Virus record (IMG/VR): IMGVR_UViG_3300010157_000060 | Location: 1-64,000 of that record | Direction: 5' to 3' (one strand) | DNA length: 64,000 bases | From: a virus | Shown: piece after piece, positions 29,568 through 39,230 of the stretch | Layout: each line of letters begins with the position of its first letter | Numbering within the stretch: position 1 is the stretch's first letter | The notes under the pieces: model-generated | The model's database searches: none | The model's input: only the letters and a program-made list of their open reading frames with translations | What the model was told of the DNA's origin: nothing | Program-made: the position numbers and the translations under genes

Positions 29568-30332
29568 ATGAATTGTGGTTATGTGTACGTTGCTTCGTGC
29601 AACAGTGAGTTCTATAGGGCGGCGATAAACTCTGCGGTATCTCTTCGGGACTACTACCCAGAAGCTAAGATCGCACTCTTCACTCATGAGAAGTTCTTAA
29701 AAAAATCAGACGAGAAGTACTTCGATCACGTGCAGACTGGCATTCCGGTCAACGAGAGAGCGAAGATGTACGGAATGGCGAGAACGCCGTTTGACCGCAC
29801 GTTCTACATGGACTCTGATACTGAAATTAGATCTGAGAATATCAAAAAAGTGTTTGACATTCTTGGAGACTGTGATATAATGTTCACTAAGATAATACCA
29901 CAAGTTTCCAAGGACGTATATATCGATGATGAAAATAACCTCCACTATCATGGTGGTGTGGTCCTCTACAATAGCGATCCACTAACGATACAGCTGATGA
30001 GGGACTGGTACGAGTTCTACCAGTACCAGCAAAAATGCGAATGGAAAGAAAGCATATTCGCAGAGTACAGCGAGAAGATGAAACCATGGGACCAGTTCAC
30101 CATGTGGTACCTTCTCTATAAGTACCCGAAGTACAGGGATATAAAGCACGACTTCTTTCCAAACGGTGGTACTTCCTACAACTTCATATACCTGCTTGAA
30201 GAGAGAAGAGAGAAGTACAAAGACTACTACGACTTAGAGCAGATCGTCTACCACTATACTATTCCCGGAATAAGGAAAGAAAATGCAGTCATTCTCAAGC
30301 CTCAATCCAGATCTTCTGAAGATTTTAACTGA
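29568..30332 (+). CDS. GT-A-fold glycosyltransferase
   Basis: The 254-residue product opens with YVYVASCNSEFYRAAINSAV and continues with a Rossmann-like alternation. The metal-binding DxD motif is DSD at residues 82-84 (FYMDSDTEIR), and a late HGGVVLYN segment forms the acceptor side. This matches GT-A nucleotide-sugar transferases (GT8-like or DUF273-like). It probably moves a sugar from a UDP-sugar to a protein or glycan; acceptor and sugar are unknown. It is the first gene of the island, four bases after the fibre cluster, and its last 50 bases overlap the next gene. It is co-directional with the fibres and may be read with them. Confidence 0.75.
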   Translation: MNCGYVYVASCNSEFYRAAINSAVSLRDYYPEAKIALFTHEKFLKKSDEKYFDHVQTGIPVNERAKMYGMARTPFDRTFYMDSDTEIRSENIKKVFDILGDCDIMFTKIIPQVSKDVYIDDENNLHYHGGVVLYNSDPLTIQLMRDWYEFYQYQQKCEWKESIFAEYSEKMKPWDQFTMWYLLYKYPKYRDIKHDFFPNGGTSYNFIYLLEERREKYKDYYDLEQIVYHYTIPGIRKENAVILKPQSRSSEDFN

Positions 30333-30939
30333 GTTCAGCGACTTCTTCTACGGCCGAGACTTCTCTCACCTAGAGCCGCTGATCGGTAGCAACCCGAAGA
30401 TGAAAGACGTCACGACTAAAGAGATGGGACCCACTGCGCTGAGTGATGAGTACTTGTTTGCAGGACTAGATACACCGCTGAAGTACGGCTTTCCTAGGCA
30501 CTCTTTTGGTCTTGAGCTCCACTACGACAGGAAGTACATTCAGGACACGGAGCTTCTTGACCAGTGCCATAAGACCAACGATGAGCTCATGACGTTCTTT
30601 GGAGCTAGGAACAGCGCATTGCAGATGTTCTACCCGTCAGGCGGCTACATAGGATGGCACAACAACTGCAACGCTGCTGGGTACAACATCATACTGTCAT
30701 GTAACCCCGGCGGAGATGGGTACTTCAAGCACTACGATCACGTCAATAAGGTGTTCAACAACTTCCCTGACCAGAGAGGTTGGAACTGCAAAGTCGGGTA
30801 CTTTGGTTCTGACAAAGAGCCGGAGAAGATCTTCTGGCACTGCGCAGGAACTAACACACCTCGATTAACTTTCAGCTACATCATCTACGATGAGAACATC
30901 TGGAAAGACATGATCGACGACATCAACTACGATGGTTAA
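30283..30939 (+). CDS. 2OG-Fe(II) oxygenase-like protein with HxN variant
   Basis: This 218-residue protein shows the double-stranded beta-helix pattern of phage hydroxylases: LQMFYPSGGYIGWHNNCN, then ILSCNPGGDGYFKHYD, KVGYFG, FWHCAGT, and TPRLTFSYIIY. The iron site would be H126 and H186, with R194 binding 2-oxoglutarate. The usual HxD aspartate is replaced by N128, so activity is uncertain, or the protein may use a facial-triad variant. The start has an AAGGAA ribosome site within the preceding glycosyltransferase gene, which supports the 50-base overlap. It may hydroxylate a residue or sugar for later modification by its neighbours. Confidence 0.65.
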   Translation: MQSFSSLNPDLLKILTEFSDFFYGRDFSHLEPLIGSNPKMKDVTTKEMGPTALSDEYLFAGLDTPLKYGFPRHSFGLELHYDRKYIQDTELLDQCHKTNDELMTFFGARNSALQMFYPSGGYIGWHNNCNAAGYNIILSCNPGGDGYFKHYDHVNKVFNNFPDQRGWNCKVGYFGSDKEPEKIFWHCAGTNTPRLTFSYIIYDENIWKDMIDDINYDG

Positions 30940-31645
30940 CTTCATATGCTTAAAGTGGGGAGATAAGTATGGACCCGAGTACGTCAATAGGCTATACAGG
31001 TCTATTCGGAGATATTATGACGGATGTTGTAGCTTTTATTGCTATACCGATTCTGGCTTGGACCTTGATAACGAAATAGAGATCAGGGACATCTCTGTTC
31101 TAAGAAGAGAAAACTATAAGTGCTTTACTGTCGAGAAGATCTTCTTATTTGACTCAGGGGTCATCAGCGGTAAGTGCGTTCTCTTAGATCTGGACGTCTT
31201 GATCTTAGATAGCTTAACTGAGTACTTAGATGAGTACGACTTCTCTGAGCCTAGGTTCACGCTTAGCCACAAGCCTAACCAGAACTACCCACTATTTGCG
31301 GACTTGTTCTTCCAGTCCGGTCCTAACTACGTTAACAGCTCATTTGTTACTTGGAGAGATGGACAGCTCGACTGGCTCAGGGAGTTCTTCATGGAGAACA
31401 GGGAGATCATCGAGTACAAGTACTTAGACCTAGATACGGCCATATTTCAGACATGCAGGAAGAAGCTTCGCTTTCATCCGCAGAGTATCATATACTCATA
31501 TAATGCTTACAGGGAGAAGCTCAACTCCAAGATCACGTACTTCAATACCTCACATGGTCGAGGTCAAGAGCTGCACGAAGGCCCGCAGTGGGCTACAGAC
31601 CTATGGAGGGGTCATGATAGTGAATCAGCACTCGGAGGTCGCTGA
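30932..31645 (+). CDS. Glycosyltransferase, paralogue A
   Basis: The 237-residue protein begins FICLKWGDKYGPEYVNRLYR, has DLD at 86-88 (VLLDLDVLI) and the later block NYVNSSFVTWRDGQLDWL, then FNTSHGRGQELHEGPQWATD. This is a GT-A-like enzyme of the type frequent in marine phage genomes. It is clearly a duplicate of the protein encoded at 32200, with the same order of blocks and a 32-base stretch of DNA identical in both. Its ATG sits inside the last codons of the oxygenase gene. Its 3' end overlaps the convergent gene at 31593 by 53 bases. Sugar and acceptor are unknown. Confidence 0.7.
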   Translation: MVNFICLKWGDKYGPEYVNRLYRSIRRYYDGCCSFYCYTDSGLDLDNEIEIRDISVLRRENYKCFTVEKIFLFDSGVISGKCVLLDLDVLILDSLTEYLDEYDFSEPRFTLSHKPNQNYPLFADLFFQSGPNYVNSSFVTWRDGQLDWLREFFMENREIIEYKYLDLDTAIFQTCRKKLRFHPQSIIYSYNAYREKLNSKITYFNTSHGRGQELHEGPQWATDLWRGHDSESALGGR

Positions 31646-32222
31646 CCCTTCGCTGCTTCATGCTGGCGCTGTCTATCATATGAGAGAAGTACCTTATCTT
31701 GCCGTACTTGTTGATGAACGTGTCATCGCCGTAGTGCTCAGACGTGTGCTTGAAGACGTCGCTGAGTAGCATCTCAGCTAAGAAAGCGTGCGACTTTCCT
31801 ATCCACCCCATCACCGAGCTGTTTCCGTAGCAGAAGAACCTAGGATCGCGATCACTCATGTCCTTAGGCTTCCATAGAGTATCAACTAGAGTTACACTTT
31901 CTGTGTCGATATCATCTAAAAGAAACTCCAGTTTACCAAGTATGTTGACATCTAGGTCAAAGTACAAGTTAGTGCAATCATGATTGCACTTCTCAAATAT
32001 GAGAATTTTATTCCACCAAGTGTCGAGCTCATACTCGTCTACTCTAGCGAACTGTATCGGTAAGTCAGAAGACTCATCGCGATCAGTCAAGCATATCAAC
32101 TCAAAGTCCCTGGATAAATACTTATCAATGAGTAAGTACAACCTCTCGACGTGCTCTTTGGTGTACTTTGGCTTCACGAGAACACAGTAGATCTTTATAA
32201 TGGAAAAGACAGTCAAGTTCAT
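31593..32222 (-). CDS. Glycosyltransferase-like protein on the opposite strand
   Basis: The 209-residue product reads IKIYCVLVKPKYTKEHVERL with DLD at 89-91 (NLYFDLDVNI) and GNSSVMGWIG further on. It is the same broad fold as the neighbours but more diverged. It is inverted between the two paralogues at 30932 and 32200, overlapping one at its 3' end and the other by 23 bases at its 5' end. If translation begins a few codons later than the ATG at 32222 the second overlap disappears; I see no strong ribosome site to decide. Inversion or replacement by recombination between the paralogues is plausible. Confidence 0.6.
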   Translation of the reverse strand: MNLTVFSIIKIYCVLVKPKYTKEHVERLYLLIDKYLSRDFELICLTDRDESSDLPIQFARVDEYELDTWWNKILIFEKCNHDCTNLYFDLDVNILGKLEFLLDDIDTESVTLVDTLWKPKDMSDRDPRFFCYGNSSVMGWIGKSHAFLAEMLLSDVFKHTSEHYGDDTFINKYGKIRYFSHMIDSASMKQRRVSDLRVLIHYHDPSIGL

Positions 32223-32919
32223 AACTCTAAAGTGGGGTACTAAGTACGGGCCTGAGTACGTGAACAGGCTCTACGATAGCATAAAGAAGACATACACGGG
32301 ACCATTTGAGTTCTACTGCTTTACTGATAACAGCAGGGGTCTCAAGTGCAGGACGTACCCCATCGAGATGCTTCCTCATTTCAAGTCCAACGTATTCACT
32401 GTCTGCAAGCTAGACCTATTTAATAAGATGCCGATGGTCGGCCCGTACGTCCTGCTCGATCTCGATCTATTGATTCTCAAGGACCTCAAGCCTTACTTTA
32501 ACGAGTACAATTTTGAAGAGCCTAGGATGATCTACAACTACTGGACAGATCCAGAGAGAATCTACAGGTCTTACTTTACTGGTGACTGCTACGTTAACAG
32601 CTCATTTGTTACTTGGAGAGGAGACCAGCTGAGGTGGATGTACGATAAGTTCGTTGAGAACAAAGAGATAGTCGGCTTCAGGTTCAAGACTTTCGATAAG
32701 TTCATCTTCTACAGCAGCAGAAAGAAGATCGGCTACCACCCGAGAAAAGTTGTCTACGCTTACAGCTTCGGCGCCGAGTACCCAGAGGACAGGGACATAT
32801 ACAAGTACAGACCTGAGTACTACATATCTATATTCAATACATCTCACAAGCAGGGAACTGAGCTGCACGAAGCCGGCGGCTGGGCTAAAGAGAAGTGGAC
32901 GCAGTATGATCGGAATTAG
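32200..32919 (+). CDS. Glycosyltransferase, paralogue B
   Basis: The 239-residue protein follows paralogue A block for block: KFITLKWGTKYGPEYVNRLY, FYCFTD, VLLDLDLLIL with DLD at 87-89, YVNSSFVTWRGDQLRWMYDK, then FNTSHKQGTELHEAGGWAKE. The last block, with its serine and histidine, may form the acceptor site. It lies divergent from the gene at 31593, and its stop lies 11 bases inside the next gene. Same family as paralogue A; specificity unknown. Confidence 0.7.
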   Translation: MEKTVKFITLKWGTKYGPEYVNRLYDSIKKTYTGPFEFYCFTDNSRGLKCRTYPIEMLPHFKSNVFTVCKLDLFNKMPMVGPYVLLDLDLLILKDLKPYFNEYNFEEPRMIYNYWTDPERIYRSYFTGDCYVNSSFVTWRGDQLRWMYDKFVENKEIVGFRFKTFDKFIFYSSRKKIGYHPRKVVYAYSFGAEYPEDRDIYKYRPEYYISIFNTSHKQGTELHEAGGWAKEKWTQYDRN

Positions 32920-33520
32920 AGAAGAGATAAGAAGAATACATGAGATCTTATTTGAGGACTTTCTCAAGAAGCAGCACAAGTACGTGTACAGGCTATTTGA
33001 GATACACAATGACGCTCACATCAATAACAGGAACTACTACGTCTTCGAGATCATAAAGAAGAACTTCTCAGATCTCAAGAAAGTAGTGATCATCAACAGC
33101 AGTAACCCAATACCTCTATGTCACTTCTTCAAGTCAGAGTACGACAGCGATATTACTCTGATATCAGATCACCCATCTTTTGAGTTCACACAGAAGTTCT
33201 TCTCTGATTTCTTTAAGACAAATAACATCATAAAGAGCGCTTTCTTTGATGATCTAAGTGATGATATCAAGGGAGCAGACCTAGTGATCTTTCCAGAGTT
33301 CGAGTACATGGTGCCACTTGACATGCTCAAGTACTACAACGAGGGCACGATGACCATGGCAGTGCACCACATAGCGCACGTCAACGATCACAACAGCCGG
33401 ATGATGATCATGACTGAGCACGACTTACTTGAAGAGTGCAACTTCGACGAGGTGATAGACTCAGGGAGGACCAAGAACTCCGATGGCAGAAATATATTCT
33501 ACTCTTTGGGAATTCGGTAA
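32906..33520 (+). CDS. Methyltransferase-like Rossmann protein
   Basis: I place the start at ATG 32906 (MIGIREEIRRIHEILFEDFL, 204 residues). A longer open frame exists upstream, but it lies over the glycosyltransferase gene and its residues look random. The protein alternates strands and helices: KKVVIINSSNPIPLCHFF, then ITLISDHPSFEFTQKFF, and DLVIFPEFEYMVPLDML. This resembles SAM-dependent methyltransferase-like proteins related to nicotianamine-synthase folds, but the usual GxGxG loop is absent. It overlaps the upstream gene by 14 bases and the convergent sulfotransferase-like gene by 22 bases. The call is tentative. Confidence 0.5.
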   Translation: MIGIREEIRRIHEILFEDFLKKQHKYVYRLFEIHNDAHINNRNYYVFEIIKKNFSDLKKVVIINSSNPIPLCHFFKSEYDSDITLISDHPSFEFTQKFFSDFFKTNNIIKSAFFDDLSDDIKGADLVIFPEFEYMVPLDMLKYYNEGTMTMAVHHIAHVNDHNSRMMIMTEHDLLEECNFDEVIDSGRTKNSDGRNIFYSLGIR

Positions 33521-34173
33521 CTAGGATCTGCCGCGGTCATCTGCTTCATGAGATCATCTAGCCAGTGGTGATCTACTCTCTTAACGTACTTAGCGTTCTC
33601 ATTCTCAGCTATGATATCTGACAAGGTATCATCGTTTATCCGTATAGGAAAATCAAAGGCCTTCTCAAGCTGAGATAAGTACCTACCCCTGTAGAGATAC
33701 AAGAGCTCAGTCGATACGTAGATCGGATCGTACTTGTAGAGTACTCTGTCTATCTCTTTGAGTAGAGCTGGGTAAGTTATCTTCTTCCTAACTCTCATCT
33801 GCTGGTACTTGAGTATGTTCACTTCTCTCCCAATAACTCCAACTTTCACTTCAAAGCCGGCTTCAATAGCCCTGCGGATGAACATCTCGTAGTCAGGTAC
33901 TTCCATTGGGAGTCCCGTCATATCTGGGCTATTTCCCTTAGTCATGTACGGGCACGAGATGCTCGTGTAGTAGTTACCATTTAAGAACTCTCCTCTCTTG
34001 AATAGGTCTGGATTTTTCCAGTAGAGGTTGAAGGTCTCTTGACCGTGCAGCACCCAGTACTCCTGCGTTAGCTCTTTCCAGCCGATAACATCTGGATGAT
34101 TGCTGATGATCTTACTCCACAGGTGATTTCCAGATCCCTGCGGGCCAGTAAATATGAGAAGCTTCTTAGACAT
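33499..34173 (-). CDS. Sulfotransferase-like P-loop protein 1
   Basis: The 224-residue protein starts KKLLIFTGPQGSGNHLWSKI at residue 3, which looks like the 5'-phosphosulfate-binding loop of sulfotransferases, followed by ISNHPDVIGW. Residues 100-130 (AGFEVKVGVIGREVNILKYQ) could form the 3'-phosphate site. Sulfotransferases move sulfate from PAPS to a hydroxyl or amine of a sugar, lipid or protein. The gene is translated with the methyltransferase upstream (8-base overlap). It shares the island with an APS-kinase-like gene and a second sulfotransferase-like gene at 37963. A generic nucleoside kinase is an alternative because the loop GPQGSGN is short. Confidence 0.6.
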   Translation of the reverse strand: MSKKLLIFTGPQGSGNHLWSKIISNHPDVIGWKELTQEYWVLHGQETFNLYWKNPDLFKRGEFLNGNYYTSISCPYMTKGNSPDMTGLPMEVPDYEMFIRRAIEAGFEVKVGVIGREVNILKYQQMRVRKKITYPALLKEIDRVLYKYDPIYVSTELLYLYRGRYLSQLEKAFDFPIRINDDTLSDIIAENENAKYVKRVDHHWLDDLMKQMTAADPSYRIPKE

Positions 34174-34924
34174 TCTTCACCCACTCAAAATAAAGCCGAT
34201 CGTGGCTGTCCTTCTTTAATGTAGTCATAGTGCAGCCGAGATCAGCTGACATCTTGTAAGCGTACTCAAAGCTCCAAGGAAATAAGTCTATCCAGTATCC
34301 CTCTTTCCTGTTCTTTCCGGGGTTAACCCTAACGTAGATGGTACCTCCTGGAGAAGTGAGCTCAACGACCCTCTTCATCCTGACAGCTACGTCCTCATAA
34401 GATCCGAAGTTTATGCTGCCGAACACGAGAACGTGATCGTAGGTGTTGTCAGGAACTCTGAAGTCCAGCACGTCGACCATGAAGTCTGCGCACCTGTTGT
34501 ATATGTCGATTCCAACGAGGTTGTTGATCTTCCCCTTGAACTGGTTGTATCCACAGCCGACGTCTAAGACGGCTTTTGGGTCTTGAGAGTTGATCCTGTT
34601 CACGATCTCCCATCCAGTATACTGGTAGTCATCAGTTCTTGGAGTCCAAGTTCCGTTGTACTCAAAGAAGCGCTTCCTGTACTTCTCATCTATCTCATCT
34701 ACTAGATCGCCCAGAGTACGGCTGAAGTCCAGCTCAAACTCATATACGTTCTCAACTGCTTCTTTGAACTTCTCTAGTCTCTTAGGAGTCCACGGCAGTG
34801 AAGAGATGATGGTCTCTCTTTGAGCATCTAAGTTCAAGTGCGCGTACTTCTGTAGTTTGAAGTAAGACTCAAGAGATTCTTTCACAAAAGCAAAAATTTT
34901 CTTATTTGTCACTTTTTTTCCCAA
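34166..34924 (-). CDS. Class I SAM methyltransferase 1
   Basis: Residues 119-126 VLDVGCGY and the following NNLVGIDIY form motifs I and II of class I methyltransferases. Then come YDHVLVFGSINFGSYEDV (motif IV area) and SPGGTIYVRVNPGKNRKEGY. The product is 252 residues. It is a paralogue of the protein encoded at 38610, which shows the same order GCGxNxFKGKIxNLxGID and the GSVNFG block. Acceptor unknown. The gene starts the short leftward pair of the island and faces the oxygenase at 34993 across an AT-rich gap. A sugar or lipid O-methyltransferase is a reasonable guess. Confidence 0.75.
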   Translation of the reverse strand: MGKKVTNKKIFAFVKESLESYFKLQKYAHLNLDAQRETIISSLPWTPKRLEKFKEAVENVYEFELDFSRTLGDLVDEIDEKYRKRFFEYNGTWTPRTDDYQYTGWEIVNRINSQDPKAVLDVGCGYNQFKGKINNLVGIDIYNRCADFMVDVLDFRVPDNTYDHVLVFGSINFGSYEDVAVRMKRVVELTSPGGTIYVRVNPGKNRKEGYWIDLFPWSFEYAYKMSADLGCTMTTLKKDSHDRLYFEWVKNV

Positions 34925-34992: not shown

Positions 34993-35688
34993 ATGTCAGT
35001 AGAAGACTGGAACAAAGCCACGAGCGCGTGGGAGTACACTAAGACTAGAAGCAAGTACCACTTCGACACCCACATTCGAGACATGAGATGGGACACGGTG
35101 ATCGGTCTCGGTAAGCTTACCGGAGACTGGCAAGAAGAGCTCGCGCAGCAAGTTGAAGCTTCAACGCCGGTGACCATCGCCACTCGCAGGAACCAGTGGA
35201 GGCGCGAGCACGACAAGGTAAAGCTCAATACAGCCGAGACTAACGACTTCGTAGAGGTCGGCGCAGACCCAGAGATGACCATCTTCAGGGTACAGCATGA
35301 CTTATCACCTACTTTCCAGAAGATGGTAGATATGATCGGGCTAGACCATCATGAATCTAGGCTTCACGTTCAGTATCCGGGAGAAGCTTTTCTCGGTCAC
35401 GTCGATCGCTTTGACTTGAACTGGCCCGGAGTTGACCCAGAGAACTTGATCCGCATCGGTGTCATGCTCAAGGACTATGAGCAGGGGCACTTCTTCCAGT
35501 TCGGCAACCACCTCTACCAGTTCTGGCGCGCCGGGGACATACACACGTTTGACTACTGGAGCGTACCACACTATACCGCGAACAGCGGTCTATCTCCAAG
35601 AGTGACGCTGTTCACTACTGGAATTATTACTGACAAGACGCGTGAGTTCTTAAAGAGCGCGCGCCGCACGACTGAAATACTAATCTAA
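34993..35688 (+). CDS. 2OG-Fe(II) oxygenase (beta-hydroxylase type)
   Basis: This 231-residue protein carries a complete iron site: H136 and D138 in FLGHVDRFDL, H193 in WSVPHYTANSG, and R203 for 2-oxoglutarate in LSPRVTLFTTG. The W-x-x-GDIHTFDYW strand is typical of aspartyl/asparaginyl- or prolyl-hydroxylase-like phage proteins. It would oxidise a peptide or small molecule with 2-oxoglutarate and oxygen. A strong CGGAGGA ribosome site precedes it, and it is followed 16 bases later by the symporter gene, so the two are likely one transcript. Substrate unknown. Of the three oxygenase-like proteins in the window it has the most canonical active site. Confidence 0.8.
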   Translation: MSVEDWNKATSAWEYTKTRSKYHFDTHIRDMRWDTVIGLGKLTGDWQEELAQQVEASTPVTIATRRNQWRREHDKVKLNTAETNDFVEVGADPEMTIFRVQHDLSPTFQKMVDMIGLDHHESRLHVQYPGEAFLGHVDRFDLNWPGVDPENLIRIGVMLKDYEQGHFFQFGNHLYQFWRAGDIHTFDYWSVPHYTANSGLSPRVTLFTTGIITDKTREFLKSARRTTEILI

Positions 35689-35704: not shown

Positions 35705-37144
35705 ATGAACATTTTTCCATTATTTGACCAAACTGCGGGGTTTGCGCTCATCGCGTTCTACGCGGTGGCCGTGTTCTTCTTAACGAGCTTCTTCTCTAAG
35801 GGGTTCGACAGCAGCAAAGAGAGCTTCTTGGTAGCCAACCGAGAGATCGGTTTCTTTCAGGGAACTTTCTCTGCTGGAGCTAGCTGGATTCACGCACCGG
35901 GTCTATTTGTCGCGGCCCAGCAGGGATATAACAATGGTTGGCCGGGAGTCTTCTGGTTCAGCTTCGGTAACTTCTTCAGCTACATCGTCTTCGCGTACTT
36001 CATCAATAAGTTCCGGAACGACAACGGTAAGATCTTTACGCTGAGTGAGTACTTCAAGGGAAAATGGGGAGGCTTCATCAGCTTCTTAGTTCTACTCCAG
36101 CTCTTGCTCTTGACTCTTCAGTCGCTGACAATTGACTTGTTTGCCGGTACTCAGAGCGTCGCTCTCTTGACCGGAATTAACCCGATGCTGATCTCAGCTC
36201 TACTAGTAGGTATCGCGCTGACTTACTCACTTCGCGGTGGAATCAAGGCGTCGATCGTCACTGACGTGATCAAGATCCTCATGATCTTCGTGGGCGTAGC
36301 AGTCGTCGGCTATACGGTGTACAGCACGACTGGAGTACAGCCTATCATCGATGGTATGGCCGGTAAGTCTGGAAAGGGAACATCTCTTTGGAGTGACAGC
36401 TTCGCTCTTGGCCTTCTCTTCGGCTTTGGTATACCTACGGTCATCGGTCACTTTGCCTCAGCTTGGACGACCAATGAAGGGTACCAGAACGCCTTCGCTA
36501 TGAAGCCGAACGTTGCACTCTGGGCGTACATCGCAGCTCCGTTCTGCTGGTTAGTTCTCCAGCTCATCGGTGGACCTCTCGGTATGATCGCTGCCGGCTT
36601 GCACATCGATGCTGGAACTAAGTCCGGCTTCGTCAACTTGATGGTTATGGCTCAAGTCGTTGGTCCATGGCTAGTGCTGGTGTTCTTGATGACGGTCTTC
36701 GCCGGCCTCATCAGCATCATCGACACGATGCTCATCAACAGCGCCAACATGGTGGGAAGTGACTTCCACGACTACTTCAAGGGAAAGAACCCAGTTCTCT
36801 GGAGTCGAGTAGCCATGATCGTCTTCGCTGCGATCGGTATCTTACTCGCTAACATTCCGGGGCTAGATCTAAACACGATCTTCCTCTTCGGAAAGACGTT
36901 CCAGTTATGCTTCTTCATTCCAGTAGTGATAGGAGTAGTCGCTCCTCACTTCCTCACTAAGTGGGGATTCATCTCAGGAGCGGCAGTTGGTTCTCTCGTT
37001 GGCTCTCCTCTCTATGTTTACGGGCTTCTCTTCGGCGGTGGTCCTAACATCCAAGTTACTGGAACTCTGATCCAAGTATTTGGTGCTGGTATCGTATGCT
37101 ACGTAGTTAGTAAGTACACAGCAAAGAGAGAAGCGATTGCATGA
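35705..37144 (+). CDS. Sodium:solute symporter (SSS family)
   Basis: The 479-residue protein has about 13 hydrophobic segments and the normal length of SSS (SLC5-type) transporters, which import a solute with sodium. Recognisable parts are an N-terminal TM1 (residues 10-30), the loop ESFLVANREIGFFQGTFSAG (family FLAGR-like), and the signature region YSLRGGIKASIVTDVIKILM (about residues 178-197, family GG-x-A-x-x-x-TD). Later comes ISIIDTMLINSANMVG, matching the conserved S-x-x-D-S-x-L-x-x-x-S segment. The gene is intact and well placed, with ribosome site AGGAAG, and overlaps the kinase gene ATG by four bases. Substrate cannot be read; proline, urea, acetate and sugar carriers share the fold. 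A full symporter in a phage genome is very unusual. Confidence 0.85.
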   Translation: MNIFPLFDQTAGFALIAFYAVAVFFLTSFFSKGFDSSKESFLVANREIGFFQGTFSAGASWIHAPGLFVAAQQGYNNGWPGVFWFSFGNFFSYIVFAYFINKFRNDNGKIFTLSEYFKGKWGGFISFLVLLQLLLLTLQSLTIDLFAGTQSVALLTGINPMLISALLVGIALTYSLRGGIKASIVTDVIKILMIFVGVAVVGYTVYSTTGVQPIIDGMAGKSGKGTSLWSDSFALGLLFGFGIPTVIGHFASAWTTNEGYQNAFAMKPNVALWAYIAAPFCWLVLQLIGGPLGMIAAGLHIDAGTKSGFVNLMVMAQVVGPWLVLVFLMTVFAGLISIIDTMLINSANMVGSDFHDYFKGKNPVLWSRVAMIVFAAIGILLANIPGLDLNTIFLFGKTFQLCFFIPVVIGVVAPHFLTKWGFISGAAVGSLVGSPLYVYGLLFGGGPNIQVTGTLIQVFGAGIVCYVVSKYTAKREAIA

Positions 37145-37602
37145 AGAAGATACTAATCTTCGGGCTGCCAGGGTCGGGTAAGACGACTCTGGCGAGAGCT
37201 CTAGTTCCTAGACTGAGAGCCGTTCACTGGAACGCAGATTCAGTCAGGGCTAACATAAACACCCATCTCGGTTTCTCTGAGAGTGACAGAGAAGAGCAAG
37301 CTAGGAGAATGGGCTGGCTATGCGATCAGGTAGTTAAATCAGGGAACTACGCGATCGCGGACTTCGTCTGCCCAACTAAAGCAACTCGTGATATATTTGG
37401 ACCGTGCTATAAGATATGGATGAACACCATAGATGAGAGCCGCTTTGAGGACACGAACAAGATGTTCGAGGTACCTAAGCACGATGGCTTCGACCTGTGC
37501 ATTAATAAGTGGAACGCTGAGTTCTGGGCTAAGTACATAGCAGAAGAGCTAGACTACATAGAGAAACCTACATTCGTGAAAACACTATTGAGGAACTTAT
37601 AA
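37141..37602 (+). CDS. APS-kinase-like P-loop kinase
   Basis: APS kinase converts adenylyl sulfate to PAPS, the sulfate donor. The 153-residue product has Walker A GLPGSGKTTLARAL (residues 8-21), then WNADSVRANIN at the place of the family DGDNVRxGLN. Next are LGFSESDREEQARRMGWL, matching the family LGFSxxDRxENIRR, and ADFVCPTKATRDIFG, matching SFISPxRxxR. The C-terminal part is shorter than in CysC (about 200). It overlaps the symporter stop (ATGA) and precedes the nucleotidyltransferase by one base. A different small-molecule kinase of the same clan is possible, but the order of motifs favours APS kinase. Confidence 0.7.
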   Translation: MKKILIFGLPGSGKTTLARALVPRLRAVHWNADSVRANINTHLGFSESDREEQARRMGWLCDQVVKSGNYAIADFVCPTKATRDIFGPCYKIWMNTIDESRFEDTNKMFEVPKHDGFDLCINKWNAEFWAKYIAEELDYIEKPTFVKTLLRNL

Positions 37603-37603
37603 G

Positions 37604-37966
37604 ATGTTTGATTGGAAGAAACCAACTGTGCAGCTTCTGGGAAGGTACCAGCCGTGGCATCCGGGACACACTGAGCTCTTTAAGAGAGCGCACGCGAAAA
37701 CAGGTCAGGTCTGCATCATGGTGCGTGACACGCAGGGCACTGACGAGAAGAACCCGTTTGATCTCTTCGCTGTAGCGAATTACATTAAAGAAGCACTCGG
37801 TAAAGAGGGCTTTGAGAGCGGAGTCGACTACGTTATCGTGGATGTTCCAAACATCGTGAACATCACCTACGGCCGTGATGTTGGATACACCATCGAGAAA
37901 GAGGACTTTGACAAAGAGATCCTCAAGATCTCAGCCACTCAGATCCGCAAAGAGATGGGCTTGTGA
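37604..37966 (+). CDS. Small HxGH nucleotidyltransferase
   Basis: This 120-residue protein has the two signatures of the nucleotidylyltransferase superfamily: HPGH in GRYQPWHPGHTELFKRA, and ISATQIRKEM near the C-terminus (family ISSTxIR). The superfamily includes CTP:glycerol-phosphate and NMN transferases and also ATP sulfurylase. It is too short for a normal ATP sulfurylase. Yet it is flanked by an APS-kinase-like gene and a sulfotransferase-like gene, so a role in making an adenylylated or cytidylylated precursor for them is plausible. The GTG start of the next gene overlaps its stop. Confidence 0.75.
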   Translation: MFDWKKPTVQLLGRYQPWHPGHTELFKRAHAKTGQVCIMVRDTQGTDEKNPFDLFAVANYIKEALGKEGFESGVDYVIVDVPNIVNITYGRDVGYTIEKEDFDKEILKISATQIRKEMGL

Positions 37967-38613
37967 GCTACATATTCTTTGCTGGAGCTCCAGGATCAGC
38001 TTGGAGTAAAGTAGCTAAGAGCATATACTACTCACACGGCGTTGACCAAAGTGACTACTCAGATGATAGGACGTATCACTTCTCCGATGGAGATGGAAAA
38101 GATCTGGACCACATCGGTAGCTACTTTGGTCCCGGAATGGAGTTTGGAAACTTATTTGATACTAACTTATCTAGGTACGACAAGAGAACTCTTGAGAGTG
38201 AGTTCAACGCCCCGTTCTCTGGAACGGGCTGGAGAATCATAAAGAGCCACTGCTTTTCTGATAACATAGAGTTCTTGAGATCTACTTGGCCAAAATCTCC
38301 GGTAGTCATATCTCTTAGGTCAGATGAGGACTGCCTCTACTGGTGGAAGTACGTTGGGCACTTTAATATCCCGTACCCGAGCTACGATTACTTTAGAGTT
38401 GAGAATGACGATCATCTATATACTAAGAGCTTGAATAACATATACGACTATATCAAGAAGAATAATAGAAATATAGAGAAGTCACTTCTCAAGATTGGGT
38501 CAGCAAAGAAGATCATAGATAATAAGCAGCTGTGCGATTATCTAGGGTTAGAGTACCCAGAGGACTACATGAACTACGATCTAGAGTCAACTAACGTTTA
38601 CGTGGTGAGATGA
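37963..38613 (+). CDS. Sulfotransferase-like protein 2
   Basis: The product of 216 residues is read from a GTG that overlaps the TGA of the preceding gene (GTGA); no nearby ATG fits. FFAGAPGSAWSKVAKSIYYS forms the 5'-phosphosulfate loop. RIIKSHCFSDNIEFL and the block VVISLRSDEDCLYWW resemble the IKSH and 3'-phosphate-binding (R and S) segments of sulfotransferases. Together with the kinase and nucleotidyltransferase it makes a gene set resembling sulfate activation and transfer. Similarity to sulfotransferase 1 on the minus strand is only general, so the two may have different acceptors. Confidence 0.65.
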   Translation: MSYIFFAGAPGSAWSKVAKSIYYSHGVDQSDYSDDRTYHFSDGDGKDLDHIGSYFGPGMEFGNLFDTNLSRYDKRTLESEFNAPFSGTGWRIIKSHCFSDNIEFLRSTWPKSPVVISLRSDEDCLYWWKYVGHFNIPYPSYDYFRVENDDHLYTKSLNNIYDYIKKNNRNIEKSLLKIGSAKKIIDNKQLCDYLGLEYPEDYMNYDLESTNVYVVR

Positions 38614-39230
38614 TGAAGATATTTGAATTAATGAAAACGGAGCCAGATGAAGTTCTCTGGGAGTTCGCCAATGATGTTCATACGGCTATAGTTGACCTGT
38701 ATTTCAGCAAGTACTGGATAAGCAGGTCTTACACATTTGAGCAGACCGGAGATGCTCTTATTAAAAAAGTAAATGATCTCAATCCGGAGTCAGTACTTGA
38801 CGCCGGATGCGGTACCAACTACTTCAAGGGAAAGATCCAGAACTTAATTGGAATAGATCCCTTCAGCGATGCAGCTGACGTAAAGCAGGACTTCAGTGAG
38901 TACTATCTATCCAACCCCGGAAAGCAGTTCGATGTAGTTCTAGCACTCGGGTCTGTGAACTTTGGTCTCAGGGACAAGATACTATTTGAAGTGGACTTAT
39001 TAGATAAGATGACGAAGTCGGGCGGTCATCAGTTCTGGAGAGTAAATGCCGGTAGGGCTGATCACGATTGCGATCACTTTCCGCTAGCGAACTTAATTGA
39101 CTTCTACCCATGGAATAAGGACTTCGTAGAAGAGATAGCTAAGATCTACAACTACGAGATCCTCGAGTTCGGCTTTGAGCGCAACATTACTGATCATGAG
39201 AGGGTGTACTTCACTTTTTATAAATACTAA
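38610..39230 (+). CDS. Class I SAM methyltransferase 2
   Basis: The 206-residue protein has motif I at 62-69 (SVLDAGCGTNYFKGKI) and GIDPFSD, then FDVVLALGSVNFGLRDKI and GGHQFWRVNAGR. Its blocks match the methyltransferase at 34166 in order and partly in sequence, indicating a duplication that left copies at both ends of the sulfate/symporter genes. It overlaps the sulfotransferase-like gene by four bases (ATGA), ending the operon just before the late promoter at 39219. Acceptor unknown. Confidence 0.75.
   Translation: MMKIFELMKTEPDEVLWEFANDVHTAIVDLYFSKYWISRSYTFEQTGDALIKKVNDLNPESVLDAGCGTNYFKGKIQNLIGIDPFSDAADVKQDFSEYYLSNPGKQFDVVLALGSVNFGLRDKILFEVDLLDKMTKSGGHQFWRVNAGRADHDCDHFPLANLIDFYPWNKDFVEEIAKIYNYEILEFGFERNITDHERVYFTFYKY
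39219..39226 (+). promoter_or_regulatory. T4-type late promoter for the second fibre cluster
   Basis: Exact TATAAATAC, 22 bases before the next start. It overlaps the final codons of the methyltransferase gene. A ribosome site AAGGTG lies 8 bases before the ATG. Confidence 0.75.

Follow-up and report, generated by a model that had tools for sequence, protein, structure and literature searches.

A T4-like phage operon encoding a compact APS-kinase-like protein, an HxGH nucleotidyltransferase and a sulfotransferase-like protein: a candidate phage-borne route for sulfate activation and transfer

3'-Phosphoadenosine 5'-phosphosulfate (PAPS) is the cell's active form of sulfate. In metazoans, the PAPS synthetases PAPSS1/2 combine a kinase and, following it, an HxGH adenylyltransferase in one chain of ~620 residues. 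The ATP sulfurylase gene sat of Allochromatium holds the slot before aprMBA, giving the order sat-aprMBA (PMC3779200), and viral genes for adenosine 5'-phosphosulfate (APS) kinase, cysC, are already in the literature (PMC9529941). The present analysis concerns a five-gene operon in IMG/VR record IMGVR_UViG_3300010157_000060 (71,671 bases), of which positions 1 to 64,000 constitute the window. The contig was assigned to a T4-like phage by its major head protein, portal, sheath, terminase, and baseplate wedge, all of which were clear. Its major head protein was closest to that of Stenotrophomonas phage DLP6 (70%), followed by those of Methylophilales phage Melnitz (64%) and Pelagibacter phage Mosig (63%).

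On the plus strand of the window, a compact APS-kinase-like P-loop kinase (K; 37141-37602, 153 aa), a compact HxGH nucleotidyltransferase (N; 37604-37966, 120 aa), and a sulfotransferase-like protein (ST1; 37963-38613, 216 aa, GTG start) are encoded consecutively. A further P-loop protein (ST2; 33499-34173, 224 aa) is encoded on the minus strand. A preliminary description of this DNA had read these genes as a candidate sulfate-activation and sulfotransfer system, with the first three overlapping in one operon. All four reading frames were open and the operon was recovered; N and ST1 do overlap, by 4 nt, but K and N are separated by a 1-nt gap. The operon also extends beyond that version, with a sodium:solute symporter (SSF) gene in front and a methyltransferase-like gene at the end, the symporter/K and ST1/methyltransferase junctions likewise being 4-nt overlaps. 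ST2, a second methyltransferase-like gene, and an oxygenase-like gene are located directly upstream. As 13 further viral contigs (L007-L018, L022) carry the same SSF-K-N block along with methyltransferase and oxygenase-like genes and with ST1, ST2, or both, this arrangement is not a product of chance.

We propose that K and N represent a miniature PAPS synthetase in two halves, encoded here by separate genes in one operon. N would convert ATP and sulfate to APS and pyrophosphate, and K would phosphorylate the 3'-hydroxyl of APS (APS + ATP -> PAPS + ADP). ST1, perhaps together with ST2, would then convert PAPS and an acceptor to the sulfated acceptor and 3'-phosphoadenosine 5'-phosphate. The acceptor may be a glycan on the virion fibre or the host surface, which is the most natural candidate because the cassette lies amid fibre/baseplate, glycosyltransferase-like, methyltransferase, and oxygenase-like genes. 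We infer the adenylation of sulfate by N, the use of PAPS by ST1, and this identity of the acceptor; judging from sequences, structure models, and gene neighbourhoods, it is probable that K and N jointly make PAPS and that ST1 uses it.

The description of K as an APS-kinase-like P-loop protein was upheld. K passed the cutoff of Pfam APS_kinase (4.5e-14; 53.2 bits, cutoff 21.1) and scored 53.8 against TIGR00455, far below the equivalog cutoff of 138.7. A search of the K-N profile against the PDB returned APS kinases at 1.9e-15 over residues 6-86. As K and N of this phage are separate genes, a model was built for a fused K-N homologue encoded on contig L036 (pLDDT 89, pTM 0.69). It matched APS kinases with a Z score of 19.3 and a root-mean-square deviation (rmsd) of 1.7 Å over 138 residues, ahead of gluconate kinases (16.3); a better structural match to unrelated kinases was looked for in this comparison and did not appear. 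GLPG[SA]GK, D33, R36, F45, R50, F75, P78, D104-T105-N106, and P112 were invariant in the K/KN family. When K was read against the motifs of APS kinases (DGDNxR, LGFSxxDRxEN, FISP, and a full lid), the D and R of DGDNxR, the F of LGF, and the following R were found to be retained. K shares its fold and N-terminal motifs with CysC, including viral cysC products (PMC9529941), and differs from them in its short lid, its altered Asn and Ser, and its pairing or fusion with N, to which the passages on viral cysC in that paper offer no parallel. Relatives of K numbered at least 559 in the viral scan. The assignment of K to the APS kinases by sequence, and by fold through the modelled fused homologue, appears well supported.

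N contained the motifs GRYQPWHPGH, VRD, NPF, YGRDVGY, and ISATQIR, and had all invariants of its family (GRxQPxHxGH, an Arg after the second strand, NP, PN, YGRxVGY, and ISATxxR). Its match to Pfam CTP_transf_like was weak but reached the cutoff (7.9e-05), and the earlier assignment to the HxGH nucleotidyltransferases stands; a match to ATP sulfurylases, one of the two that had been envisaged, was not obtained. The HxGH of N is present as GRYQPWHPGH, and the QxRN part of QxRNPxHxxH is absent. N has YGRxVGY, a possible counterpart of the GRD loop of Sat. The segment between the aligned blocks, which carries the acceptor site in NadM enzymes, comprises ~44 residues in MJ0541 and ~20 in N, i.e., ~25 fewer, and a smaller acceptor such as sulfate is therefore plausible. 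By sequence, N has a nucleotide-binding half of the NMN adenylyltransferase (NMNAT) type with a shortened acceptor region and falls outside the ATP-sulfurylase family; the case for N as a proposed sulfate adenylyltransferase with ATP sulfurylase-like activity therefore rests on genomic context.

SAR11 is among the most abundant bacterial groups of the ocean. In SAR11 loci L175, L176, L177, L181, and L182, a lone N gene was followed by aprM-aprB-aprA, a gene for a 116-aa protein, and a TauE-like exporter gene. AprA and AprB were confirmed with equivalog models, and AprM and TauE were named by position and by eye. From their gene content, these loci (L175-L182) appear to be coherent sulfite-oxidation loci with an unrecognised adenylyltransferase. 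N of SAR11 is similar to Sat of sat-aprMBA operons (PMC3779200) in its slot, its HxGH-type chemistry, and ISxTxxR, but it is one third of the size, lacks the QxRNP motif, and is closest in sequence to NMNAT enzymes. For Ca. P. ubique, AprBA has been reported as present and cysDNCHIJ and sat as missing (PMC5069961). Of the 118 genomes sampled, 65 encoded AprA above the curated cutoff. N was found in 60 of these 65 (Fisher p 2e-13, a value overstated by the relatedness of the genomes), PF01747 in 6, and CysD in none. In 25 of the AprA genomes, N was located no more than 6 kb upstream of aprA in the same orientation; in 20 of them the spacing was constant at ~1.4 kb. Some genomes had N beside apr without K, which would fit a need for APS turnover alone. 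Upstream of N, loci L175-L182 carried a TENA/PQQC-family gene, a major facilitator superfamily transporter gene, and a gene resembling those of pyridoxal-phosphate enzymes.

A second sulfur context was provided by the alphaproteobacterial genome G151, in which a minus-strand run encodes a CbiX-like chelatase, uroporphyrinogen methyltransferase (CysG/CobA), CysI (8.7e-213), CysH (6.3e-75), DUF2061, K, and N; CysD was not found in this genome. The same order, as judged by gene lengths (565, 234, 86, 168, and 117 aa), was present in a second alphaproteobacterial genome (L123).

K and N also occur as fusions, kinase then transferase, in Stenotrophomonas, Xanthomonas, and Clavibacter phages and many viral contigs, where DUF2061 often comes next; bacterial examples are found in Pelagibacteraceae, SAR116, Rhodospirillales, and Rhizobiales genomes. 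PHROG 10255, labelled "kinase," matches the full extent of the fused K and N in a single chain, its transferase half being without an assigned function. Among the best 50 matches of the fused-homologue model, human PAPSS1 was the long chain that aligned across both domains with a large rmsd. The fused homologues have the domain order of PAPSS1/2, and the same two reactions are proposed for them; they differ in length (~250 residues) and in having an NMNAT-like transferase instead of PF01747, and in the present phage the two parts are separate genes. In Casjensviridae phages (L002, L004, L005, L006), the KN fusion is preceded by a gene for a NADAR-domain protein (so annotated in L005) and by others labelled cysteine dioxygenase and MazG-like pyrophosphatase. 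In SAR11 loci L124-L174, separate K and N genes were situated beside genes resembling those for glycine-betaine transport, dimethylglycine dehydrogenase, Rieske oxygenase, and enoyl-CoA hydratase (by eye), and some of these genomes had large surface-protein-like genes inserted between K and N.

A DUF2061 membrane protein of 70-90 aa (L042-L086, L183) adjoined fused KN in phages more constantly than any other, and in an assimilatory operon it is placed between CysH and K. DUF2061 may be tied to sulfate handling. At most alphaproteobacterial DUF2061 loci, CysC-, CysN-, and CysD-like neighbours were not found within 3 kb, and because the link to K-N was seen at only 1 of 17 such loci, DUF2061 by itself should not be read as a sign of sulfate.

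For ST1, an AlphaFold2 model was obtained (pLDDT 84.9, pTM 0.86). The best 17 Foldseek matches were all sulfotransferases (E 0.0087-0.08), as were the top 9 in VIA-align, where tyrosylprotein sulfotransferase reached a Z score of 10.9 (3.5 Å, 167 residues). No other P-loop family came out on top, and the fold search agreed with the earlier designation as a sulfotransferase; the lead over adenylate kinases was small. Because the Foldseek E-values are modest and adenylate kinases follow closely, the sulfotransferase fold is likely rather than certain. Of the residues usual in PAPS-dependent sulfotransferases (the basic residue of the 5'-PSB, the catalytic His, and the Arg and Ser of the 3'-PB), His96 and Arg119 were invariant, as nearly was Lys94 (KxH motif), and the Ser and, in the phage copy, the basic P-loop residue were missing. 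The stretch IIKSHCF...VVISLR is similar to KTHLP...R in cytosolic sulfotransferases. Alignment to the Pfam sulfotransferase profile was weak (E 0.043) and confined to the KxH-to-Arg segment. The best structural neighbours of the ST1 model, tyrosylprotein and carbohydrate sulfotransferases, share the KxH and Arg with ST1 but only ~10-14% identity. By its nearest folds, a role of ST1 in sulfotransfer is moderately supported.

ST2 (GPQGSGNHLWSK; invariant IGR and QQxR) showed a weak local P-loop match to a sulfotransferase profile (E 0.0018, probability 15%) and had the methyltransferase as a conserved neighbour in 14 related contigs; from its sequence, it is a possible second sulfotransferase. 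Neither ST1 nor ST2 had a match in Pfam or NCBIfam or a useful one in PHROG, and their sequence profiles returned nothing meaningful from the PDB. Two relatives of ST1 and none of ST2 were found in phage records. Kinship between ST1 and ST2 was not detectable (hhalign E 0.077).

Recognisable sulfotransferases were found near K and N elsewhere. Above Pfam cutoffs, viral KN neighbours included Sulfotransfer_3 and _1 in L032, L049, and L055 and Sulfotransfer_2 in L046, L058, and L077. Pfam sulfotransferases were also near KN in bacterial loci L107, L115, L111, and L099, families 1, 2, and 3 being represented across phages and SAR11; the surroundings of L107, L115, and L111 were surface-polysaccharide-like. 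Within five genes of K/N, Pfam sulfotransferases or their cluster-mates accounted for 15 of 746 genes, and at greater distances on those contigs for 3 of 838 (p 0.003), the enrichment arising from 14 of 85 loci that are not independent. ST1 or ST2 was present at another 18 loci.

Several findings weigh against the formation of PAPS by K and N and its transfer by ST1. The closest sequence relatives of N are NMN adenylyltransferases, with below-cutoff scores against the equivalogs PRK01153 (30.5 against 127) and TIGR01527 (23.7 against 181) and PDB matches across the first 60 residues. N failed the Pfam ATP-sulfurylase model PF01747 (E 0.17; 11.7 bits, cutoff 24.3), and hhalign of N with seven Sat sequences recovered the common ISxTxxR segment alone. 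In addition, many SAR11 K-N pairs adjoin amine-catabolism-like genes that are not obviously sulfur genes, genome G151 also holds a canonical Sat on contig C19, and the co-occurrence statistics overstate independence because SAR11 genomes are related and incomplete. The best profile and PDB matches of N, together with the NADAR-domain protein adjoining the fusion in Casjensviridae phages and the existence of NMNAT-encoding phages, would suit NAD salvage, with K acting as a nicotinamide riboside kinase and N as the enzyme that adenylates NMN, so that NAD+ is replenished in the course of infection or in the face of defences that deplete NAD. Such a role is quite improbable, as K matches APS kinases and not riboside kinases, the acceptor region of N is shorter than that of NadM enzymes, and homologues are found in sulfur operons and beside sulfotransferases.

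In K, the classical APS-kinase Asn is replaced by Gln or His and the Ser by Cys/Ala (FISP to FVCP), and the lid is shortened; His at the same Asn position is also seen in one probable archaeal APS kinase. In the phosphoramidate capsule pathway of Campylobacter, an APS-kinase-like enzyme phosphorylates a cytidine diphospho intermediate. K, APS-kinase-like with altered substrate-side residues, could similarly make with N another 3'-phosphorylated nucleotide-activated group, in a cassette that includes methyltransferases and glycosyltransferase-like genes and with fused KN occurring in SAR11 surface-polysaccharide loci. We consider this very unlikely: neither a glutamine kinase nor an amidase could be recognised among the cassette genes, APS and PAPS are what the AprBA and CysH settings indicate, and the cytidylyltransferase of that pathway has a fold other than that of N.

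As for ST1, adenylate kinases reached a Z score of 9.3, ~1.6 below the sulfotransferases, the usual 3'-phosphate-binding Ser is Trp, and the P-loop basic residue is absent in the phage copy. If ST1 and ST2 were unrelated P-loop enzymes, K and N might make APS/PAPS to assimilate sulfur or to keep nucleotides balanced while the cell is infected. Viral cysC and cysH have been reported as assimilation genes (PMC9529941), and most fused-KN phage loci have DUF2061 without a recognised sulfotransferase within five genes. However, CysH and sulfite reductase were not recognised among the inspected genes of the phage contig, ST1 is conserved in its position overlapping N, and Pfam sulfotransferases are enriched beside KN, and this alternative is unlikely. 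All three alternatives are less likely than the making of PAPS by K and N for use by ST1.

The operon for PAPS formation and sulfotransfer put forward in the preliminary description is supported for K by fold and sequence, for N by strong genomic context, and for ST1 moderately. We lean toward the view that N represents a new class of ATP sulfurylase, derived from an NMNAT-type enzyme by shrinkage of the acceptor site, which fills the sat step of sulfite oxidation in SAR11 and serves assimilation in some alphaproteobacteria. With the short-lidded APS kinase, it would form the smallest PAPS synthetase, phage-borne together with sulfotransferases that sulfate glycans or fibres. A phage with its own sulfation route had been regarded as new. 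No prior description of phage sulfation, of DUF2061 function, or of a replacement ATP sulfurylase in SAR11 was found in the open-licence literature, subscription papers lying outside the search. Viral cysC is already reported (PMC9529941); N as an ATP sulfurylase and the phage sulfation cassette look new. If N makes or uses APS, the sulfur gap of SAR11, where APS reductase is conserved yet ATP sulfurylase unrecognised, would be closed, and a widespread family annotated as generic nucleotidyltransferase would gain a testable function. The phage would bring a complete sulfation route into hosts possibly without PAPS, with a PAPS synthetase of ~250 residues and likely a new kind of virion or host-surface modification.

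The first gene of the operon encodes the SSF symporter (35705-37144, plus strand; Pfam SSF 8.7e-14, TIGR00813 6.6e-23), which stands immediately before K in every relative that has one. Its closest solved structures, with weak matches, were DUR3 urea and glucose symporters, and import of sulfate or an acceptor precursor is speculative. The last gene (38610-39230, plus strand) encodes a protein resembling S-adenosylmethionine-dependent methyltransferases (Methyltransf_23 E 0.003, below cutoff). The divergent methyltransferase-like gene (34166-34924, minus strand; Methyltransf_23 E 0.0027, below cutoff) falls in the same cluster and is a conserved cassette member. The oxygenase-like protein (34993-35688, plus strand), also a cassette member, had no match in the Pfam search and may be of the 2-oxoglutarate-Fe(II) type by motif; its cluster (cluster 9) was present in 22 loci adjoining SSF-K-N or ST1.

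The cassette sits between baseplate/tail-fibre genes and further fibre-like genes, amid open reading frames (ORFs) recognised as glycosyltransferase-like by eye (29568-32919), which had no hits in Pfam. One of these (31593-32222, minus strand) overlaps the ends of the plus-strand ORFs 30932-31645 and 32200-32919, which belong to one cluster. In L008, L011-L013, L016, and L017, a 358-aa arginine deiminase/amidinotransferase-like gene (ADI, E 0.00043, below cutoff) was found inside the cassette. Phage contigs with ST1 and the oxygenase (L088-L094) also contained genes resembling those for TctC-type periplasmic solute-binding proteins (by eye), which are unusual for a phage.

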